From a virus, in IMG/VR virus record IMGVR_UViG_3300026484_000079, positions 1 through 20,633 of that record: 20,633 nucleotides of DNA; one strand, 5' to 3'. The notes under the pieces were generated by a model, which was not told the DNA's origin, made no database searches, and was given only the letters and a program-made list of their open reading frames with translations. The position numbers and the translations under genes are program-made. Position 1 is the first letter of the stretch, and each line of letters begins with the position of its first letter. Shown piece by piece: positions 8,290 to 9,041 of this stretch.

Positions 8290-9041
8290 TTACCCCGTTT
8301 TTAAATTCTTTACATAATTATAAAACATTTGTGAAATTAAATTTATGTAGTTTTTTGGTTTTAGCCCATTCCACCTTAAAGAGTCTTTAACTTGTAAATA
8401 ATTAAATCCAGTAGGCTTACCACTAAAGCCATATGTAAATTGAAGTTGCTTAAATATTTGCATTAATACAAAGGCTTCATATTCATAATTGTTAAATGAA
8501 ACAATTTTCGATAGAGGATCATTTAAAATCTCTCTATCCCTTTCATCTAAATTCGTAAAGTCTGTACCGTCTGCAAATTGTCCCGCCCACTCAATTAGTT
8601 TTGAGTAGCGTTCTGCTTTTTTTCTTCAATATCCTTTAGAATTGTTTGCATAACAATTTCATATGAGTATTGCTCACAAATTTCTAAAAGATCGTCAATT
8701 TTATCGCTTTCAACACACATATTGAAACGAATTTTTGAAGCTTCTTCTCTTGTGTTTAAGCTTTCAAGCTCTTTTTGTATAGCTTCTGTTTCATCTTCAA
8801 TTTTAAATATTTTCTTTTGCAACTCTTTAATCTTGCTTTTATCGTCCTCATACTTGAGTTCAATTGATAAACGTTTAGCTTTTTTTGCTAGTTTTTGAAG
8901 TTTGTTAGTTAATTGTTGATCTTTTTCAAATTTAAGTTCAATCTCTTTTTTTTCTTTTTTAGTTAAATCTCTAAAAGTTCCACCAATTACAGTTCCGTTT
9001 TCAAGTTCAATTTTAAAAGTTTCTTTAAATGTAAGTTTCAT
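8290..9041 (-). CDS. Tail assembly chaperone, long form made by -1 frameshift (GT-type, about 250 aa)
   Basis: This is the frameshift fusion equivalent to lambda gpG-T. Translation from ATG 9041 shifts back one base at the slippery heptamer A AAA AAG (8622-8616) and continues GCA GAA CGC TAC. That frame is open for 108 codons to TAA at 8292-8290, directly before the tape measure start. The extension is well-formed coding sequence (AERYSKLIEWAGQFADGT to YNYVKNLKTG) and has no start of its own with a ribosome site. In lambda and many siphophages the long form recruits tube protein to the tape measure while the short form coats it, and their ratio matters. Position between major tail protein and tape measure is exactly as expected. 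The shift itself is inferred but very well supported. Confidence 0.92.
8587..8637 (-). promoter_or_regulatory. Programmed -1 frameshift signal (internal Shine-Dalgarno, slippery site, hairpin)
   Basis: Three elements follow each other on the mRNA. An internal Shine-Dalgarno AAAGGA lies at 8637-8632. Nine bases later comes the slippery A AAA AAG at 8622-8616, in the right phase. After a 7-base spacer, a hairpin forms between CTACTCAA (8608-8601) and TTGAGTGG (8594-8587), 8 pairs with one G-U and a 6-base loop. The zero-frame stop codon sits partly in that loop. The arrangement mirrors the E. coli dnaX signal. Confidence 0.85.
8595..9041 (-). CDS. Tail assembly chaperone, short form (G-type, 148 aa)
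   Basis: The unshifted product ends at TAA 8597-8595, 21 bases after the slippery site. It is lysine/glutamate-rich with a long heptad-like helix (about residues 30-95 of this form), as is common in short tail chaperones. I place the start at ATG 9041 (MKLTFKETFKIEL) and not at the upstream in-frame ATG at 9095. The former has an AGGA site with 6-base spacing and gives a typical N-terminus. The longer reading would begin inside a short tandem repeat with a cysteine/histidine-rich leader. It probably coats the tape measure before tube polymerisation. Role assigned from gene order and the frameshift signal, since these proteins share little sequence. Confidence 0.88.
   Translation of the reverse strand: MKLTFKETFKIELENGTVIGGTFRDLTKKEKKEIELKFEKDQQLTNKLQKLAKKAKRLSIELKYEDDKSKIKELQKKIFKIEDETEAIQKELESLNTREEASKIRFNMCVESDKIDDLLEICEQYSYEIVMQTILKDIEEKKQNATQN

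Follow-up and report, generated by a model that had tools for sequence, protein, structure and literature searches.

A predicted programmed -1 ribosomal frameshift with a dnaX-like signal in a phage tail assembly chaperone gene

Results

A candidate three-part frameshift signal in the tail chaperone gene

A tailed-phage tail assembly chaperone gene was identified that is predicted to be decoded by programmed -1 ribosomal frameshifting, with stimulation by an internal Shine-Dalgarno (SD) sequence and a downstream hairpin. We put the probability of this reading at roughly 0.93, and we infer the action of the SD, the efficiency of the shift and the roles of the proteins. The gene lies in an IMG/VR virus record (20,633 bases), analysed in full and called the window here, as part of a minus-strand block of head and tail genes (terminase, portal, head proteins, connectors, probable major tail protein, chaperone gene, tape measure gene). 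The two chaperone frames immediately precede the tape measure gene and follow the probable major tail protein, which aligns with the 32 kDa structural protein of Nitratiruptor phage NrS-1 (31% identity, 239 columns, E 1e-26), encoded at the same gene place. The window probably derives from a low-GC phage with a Campylobacterota host.

Table 1. Features of the chaperone locus in the window.
Feature	Position	Strand	Basis
Short tail assembly chaperone (gpG-like), 148 aa, zero frame	8595..9041	-	ORF; flanked by probable major tail protein and tape measure gene
-1 frame extension (gpT-like), 108 codons + TAA, predicted to be read solely after the shift	8290..8616	-	Open frame, selection, homology
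Slippery heptamer A_AAA_AAG, zero-frame codons AAA AAG	8616..8622	-	Sequence, correct phase; same in L003
Internal SD-like AAAGGA, 9 nt 5' of heptamer	8632..8637	-	6-nt complement to 16S 3' end
Downstream hairpin, 8 pairs, 6-nt loop, 7 nt 3' of heptamer	8587..8608	-	Fold
Zero-frame stop UAA inside hairpin loop	8595..8597	-	Sequence
TGA closing the -1 frame upstream, one codon before heptamer	8626..8628	-	Sequence
Tape measure protein, 1027 aa	5203..8286	-	Pfam TMP_3 E 3.5e-18; PHROG tail length tape measure E 1.9e-45
Probable major tail protein, 321 aa	9117..10082	-	Homology to NrS-1 32 kDa structural protein

An initial annotation had described AAAGGA, a phased A_AAA_AAG, an 8-pair hairpin 7 bases downstream and a zero-frame stop in the hairpin loop, and every one of these elements was recovered in place (Table 1). 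The stem pairs 8608-8601 with 8594-8587 and includes one U-G; the loop is AACUAA (8600-8595), its final three bases forming the zero-frame stop. Within the 31-nt overlap of the zero and -1 frames the heptamer is the sole X_XXY_YYZ motif, and because the upstream TGA closes the -1 frame, a shift would be confined to A_AAA_AAG at 8622-8616. The proposed 108-codon extension was also present, open to a TAA at 8292-8290, with no stops in the -1 frame of this region versus 10 and 13 in the other two frames. It had been said to end exactly at the tape measure start; the extension does adjoin that gene, with a gap of 3 bases before the ATG (8286-8284). The predicted products are proteins of 148 aa and 250 aa, the long one carrying 108 additional codons after Lys-Lys.

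In the proposed mechanism most ribosomes would stay in the zero frame and end at the UAA (8597-8595), giving the gpG-like protein, and a fraction would pause as A_AAA_AAG occupies the P and A sites. The pause would be caused by pairing of the elongating ribosome's anti-Shine-Dalgarno with the AAAGGA and by the hairpin. Both tRNA-Lys would then re-pair one base back, and reading would continue in the -1 frame to yield a gpGT-like protein. In chaperones of the gpG/gpGT type, the short and long products are made in the ratio needed for tail assembly.

A scan of the window's ORFs indicated how often such parts meet. An in-phase A_AAA_AAG occurs at three places, and both stimulators accompany only one of them, the site at 8622-8616. 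As background, a 5-nt SD at a distance of 7-14 nt was found upstream of 2.1% of codon positions and a fold of <= -11.3 kcal/mol downstream of 1.0%; the two were found together at 0 of 5,784 codon positions.

Frame-specific selection on the two parts

The extension was assessed by comparison with a relative, L003 (IMGVR_UViG_3300026521_000059), whose short product is 91% identical and whose extension is 95% identical. Before the heptamer, substitutions were distributed 15/2/29 over the zero-frame codon positions, with a pN/pS of 0.129; after it, they were distributed 4/4/21 over the -1-frame codon positions, with a pN/pS of 0.077. Protein-level selection was thereby detected in both parts, each in its own frame, and the pattern is that of a protein that would switch from the zero to the -1 frame at the heptamer.

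The slippery site across the family

Relatives were gathered from Nitratiruptor phages NrS-1 and NrS-3, one Sulfurospirillum genome, one Nitratiruptor genome, several other Campylobacteria genomes and many environmental contigs. An initial genome-contig scan with the extension as query gave no matches, and the useful loci came from genome-contig scans with a tape measure alignment and an extension alignment. For the short product there was no clear relative in Pfam, PHROGs or a tblastn search of 50,697 phage records, and homologues were found in L003, in L086 and L088 (37-38%) and in L181, a locus in a Campylobacteria genome. The extension matched phage records weakly, in NrS-2 and NrS-3 only; its homologues were found at about 25 loci.

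All the relatives examined share the layout, with homologous zero frame and extension overlapping in -1. A canonical in-phase heptamer was present at the junction in 23 of the 25 loci of one search, mostly G_GGA_AAG, with A_AAA_AAG in the L003 contig and L151. The other two loci, together with two Campylobacteria-genome loci, hold G_GGG_AAG or G_GGC_AAG at the same place. At these junctions (G_GGG_AAG in L173, L176 and L168, G_GGC_AAG in L164) the canonical A-site slip is lost and both frames are seemingly intact; such loci may slip in the P site only, or their shift rate may differ. As a separate observation, L160 and L161 (1492-1507 in each) carry G_GGA_AAG followed 9 nt later by A_AAA_AAG, both in phase and within the overlap.

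In a tree of the extension, L145-L148 form the sister group of the window and L003, with support of 99/97 for all six together, and L151 lies apart on a long branch whose place is unsure. L003 is identical to the window in the heptamer, in AAGGA and in the 8-pair stem. L145-L148 have G_GGA_AAG and keep the two-frame arrangement, with no SD and no hairpin, so that the lineage of the window and L003, as judged from this tree, differs from its nearest relatives in heptamer, SD and hairpin simultaneously. Because L145-L148 have neither stimulator, SD and hairpin are not required in all relatives.

The downstream hairpin is probably under selection

Folding the hairpin region returned the 8-pair stem-loop that the initial annotation had asked to be checked, at -11.3 kcal/mol over 45 nt (z = -3.07; 0 of 200 dinucleotide shuffles as good). 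Over a longer 86-nt stretch the z-score was only -1.79, and the conserved 8 pairs alone give -7.7 kcal/mol; the hairpin is only moderately stable. Random synonymous recodings of the -1 frame, which leave the protein unchanged, were seldom as stable (P 0.02-0.04). In L003 the sole change within the hairpin is in the loop (C8598 to U), and G8584 to A abolishes extra basal pairs that are possible in the window.

The same recoding null was applied across the family. Taken over 19 family representatives, the 45-nt stretch 3' of the heptamer folded better than this null (Fisher 1.7e-8, a combined P that overstates independence, as the representatives are related), with P < 0.1 for 58% of family sites against 18% of control windows taken from these genes. 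A direct comparison of the 19 family hairpins with 76 control windows gave a Mann-Whitney P of 9e-4. No hairpin beyond the synonymous null was found in L145, L153, L161 or L165. These results suggest that the hairpin is probably under selection, here and across the family. They also bear on the annotation's remark that many tail chaperone shifts rely on the slippery site alone, which is only partly right, hairpins being common 3' of such sites both in the family test and in the available text of PMC3483164.

Position and sequence of the hairpin vary among subgroups, and it looks as if the hairpin has been remade rather than inherited pair by pair; because hairpins sit at different offsets, the pairs of different subgroups are not homologous. 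Covariation was considered and dropped as evidence, the stem being invariant between the window and L003. It was likewise dropped for the Sulfurospirillum/Nitratiruptor group, where the 5' arm GAUAGA, which holds the stop, is invariant. A search of Rfam gave no match.

Internal SD sequences and oligo-A heptamers

The AAAGGA of the window rests on one synonymous choice, Lys AAG rather than AAA, and AAG accounts for 122 of the 543 Lys codons in the window. Because this one choice suffices, the internal SD taken alone could be due to chance. It would not be placed for initiation, since the next gene start lies about 340 nt downstream, and its spacing falls in the range of 9-14 nt given for -1 shifts in PMC5009743, where dnaX and lambda G/GT are also described.

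The association of SDs with heptamer type was examined in two sets of loci, having been spotted in the first and afterwards tested in the second. Set 1 comprised non-redundant tail-chaperone sites adjoining the window's type of tape measure. Here an SD-like word stood 8-14 nt upstream of 9 of 14 A_AAA_AAG sites, compared with 8.3% of control windows, and of 4 of 21 G_GGA_AA sites (Fisher P 0.012 between heptamer types); overall, control windows from these genes carried one in 8-10% of cases. Set 2 comprised loci with Firmicutes-type tape measures, from which a few accidental overlaps were dropped by eye. In this set an SD was found upstream of 9 of 18 oligo-A sites, compared with 10.2% of controls (P 2.5e-5), and of 1 of 11 U_UUU_UUN sites. 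Set 2 is mostly A_AAA_AAC, with almost no A_AAA_AAG or G_GGA_AAG, and replicates only the contrast between oligo-A and U_UUU; the two sets together support an SD association with oligo-A heptamers rather than with A_AAA_AAG as such. Chaperones at the Firmicutes-type loci L190-L220 often have A_AAA_AAC with the stop directly or one codon after it, and often an SD 8-14 nt upstream.

Taken together, a stimulatory role for the internal SD is plausible. We tentatively propose a broader rule, namely that oligo-A (A_AAA_AAN) tail-chaperone sites recruit an internal SD as dnaX and IS elements do, unlike G_GGA_AAG and U_UUU_UUN sites, and that the window lineage, having A_AAA_AAG instead of its sisters' G_GGA_AAG, has SD and hairpin alongside. 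No statement of this rule appears in the available text of PMC5009743, PMC3483164 and PMC3711429, and the association is the most interesting lead from the analysis.

Alternative explanations for the overlapping frames

A real -1 shift might also be driven by the heptamer alone, perhaps with the hairpin, in which case AAAGGA would be a by-product of Lys-Asp codons and the likeness to dnaX partly accidental. This is possible, if unlikely. The SD takes a single synonymous choice, a codon used for 22% of Lys residues; the sister group L145-L148, with Glu-Asp at this place, retains the frameshift arrangement with no stimulator; and conservation of AAGGA in L003 is uninformative at such divergence. 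These points are countered by the enrichment of SDs, in both sets, before oligo-A chaperone heptamers and not before G_GGA or U_UUU, and by L181, a zero-frame relative in which A_AAA_AAG has GAGG 10 nt upstream and no hairpin.

Two further explanations would dispense with a ribosomal shift altogether. Programmed transcriptional slippage on the seven-A run (8623-8617), with an extra A in some mRNAs joining the frames, is improbable: hairpins can stimulate polymerase slippage too (PMC5009743), but published cases require longer runs (An, n > 7; PMC3711429) than the A7 here, most homologues hold G_GGA_AAG there with no long homopolymer, and the codon phase of the heptamer fits tandem tRNA slippage. 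That the locus contains two separately translated genes, the extension having its own start and no fusion being made, is very improbable indeed. The extension homologue is annotated as a separate ORF in the NrS-1 and NrS-3 records, where the chaperone halves appear as separate hypothetical proteins (AB746912.1, 26205-26821; LC545444.1, 29648-30264), yet in both phages an in-phase G_GGA_AAG lies upstream in the extension frame, which stays open through it. Moreover, the conserved extension starts directly at the heptamer, and the window's ORF list contains no ORF of >=60 aa with an ATG, GTG or TTG start that ends at 8290. Homologues encoding the extension as an independent gene would have counted against the initial annotation; among the homologues found none has a separately started extension, and all keep the two-frame arrangement. 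Because of this conservation and the frame-specific selection described above, a programmed -1 frameshift joining the tail chaperone to the 108-codon extension is strongly supported by comparative sequence evidence.

Predicted structures of the two products

Neither part matches Pfam or PHROG chaperone families; tail chaperones of different phages have low mutual similarity (PMC5009743). Structures were also compared as AlphaFold models. For the short product, pLDDT was 83 in the best of five models and about 40 in the remaining four; the best structure match was an uncharacterised myovirus protein (E 2.9e-5), followed by a tail assembly chaperone (E 0.03). The extension model reached a pLDDT of 86, and its first two structure matches were each a 'Tape measure chaperone' of T5-like phages, with two further matches of that name within the first twelve (E 0.035 to 1.5, weak). 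These model-based matches, along with gene order, support the chaperone assignment. Lambda offers an analogy, from which the part shared by both products is expected to bind the tape measure protein, and the extension to recruit the major tail protein.

Comparison with known frameshift systems

Like lambda G/G-T, the chaperone gene sits between the (probable) major tail protein and tape measure genes, would give a short and a -1-extended product, and has an X_XXY_YYZ motif near the end of the first gene. Lambda's heptamer is G_GGA_AAG, and most homologues of the window's gene carry it; the window copy differs in having A_AAA_AAG, an internal SD and a hairpin, and in lacking a curated chaperone family match by sequence. 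The lambda G/G-T frameshift and its many relatives were reportedly described by Xu, Hendrix and Duda in 2004. Frameshifting of the lambda type is general in tailed phages, as reviewed in PMC5009743.

The combination of SD, A_AAA_AAG and stem-loop is the dnaX signal (PMC5009743), and scored for presence only, the window has all of its parts: the phased heptamer, an SD-like sequence within 9-14 nt and a stem-loop a few nt downstream. The initial annotation had likened this to the full E. coli dnaX design. That description holds for the three parts, the identical heptamer and the close spacings (SD at 9 nt here and 10 nt in dnaX; hairpin at 7 nt and about 5-6 nt, respectively). It does not extend to the hairpin, which is much weaker here than that of dnaX (-19.7 kcal/mol, same fold over 45 nt), or to the outcome, since the -1 frame of dnaX ends at once to give a shorter product. 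The proteins are unrelated. On this evidence the window signal would work like that of dnaX, with a weaker hairpin and the reverse outcome, a longer product. Signals of the dnaX type have a high shift efficiency, about 50% or more.

IS3-family and IS911 elements use the same kinds of parts and likewise shift to a longer fusion, but in transposase genes and often with more elaborate structures (a three-way junction in IS911, a pseudoknot in IS3). SDs are common in IS elements, 56% of which are estimated to have one 5' of the site (PMC5009743).

Published tail chaperones already include frameshifted ones with A_AAA_AAG and stem-loops, according to the available text of PMC3483164 and PMC5009743. 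The former lists A_AAA_AAG sites in the tail chaperones of AH2, VT1-Sakai, psiM2, PVL, PV83, ul36 and a Borrelia prophage; heptamer and gene are those of the window, and AH2 has a predicted downstream stem-loop, but SD stimulators are not discussed for these sites in the available text. Searches of phage collections gave no match between the window's chaperone proteins and phages such as these. NrS-1 (genes 41/42) and NrS-3 (57/58) share with the window a homologous extension (about 30% identity in the aligned family), the tape measure and the -1 overlap; they differ in having G_GGA_AAG, a stop in the 5' arm of the hairpin and no SD at 8-14 nt.

One gain from the analysis is an explicit annotation of the 148-aa and 250-aa products, since the extension would escape automatic callers, as happened in the NrS-1 and NrS-3 records. 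With members that use G_GGA_AAG alone or A_AAA_AAG plus SD and hairpin, the family also offers a ready-made series for the question of how a product ratio persists when the slippery site changes.

Other A_AAA_AAG sites were met during the searches. A second chaperone type beside the same tape measure type (L005:3690-4327, L006:4334-4977, L013:3195-3874, L075:476-1146) has no clear similarity to the window's chaperone and also carries A_AAA_AAG, which in L005 is accompanied by an 11-pair hairpin and by AGGA 12 nt upstream. The mechanical scan of overlaps adjacent to tape measure genes also caught accidental overlaps in GC-rich loci and L048, which were excluded from the counts; L048:2287-3467 is an IS3-like transposase gene pair of the IS3 family from Avibacterium, in which A_AAA_AAG has an upstream SD.
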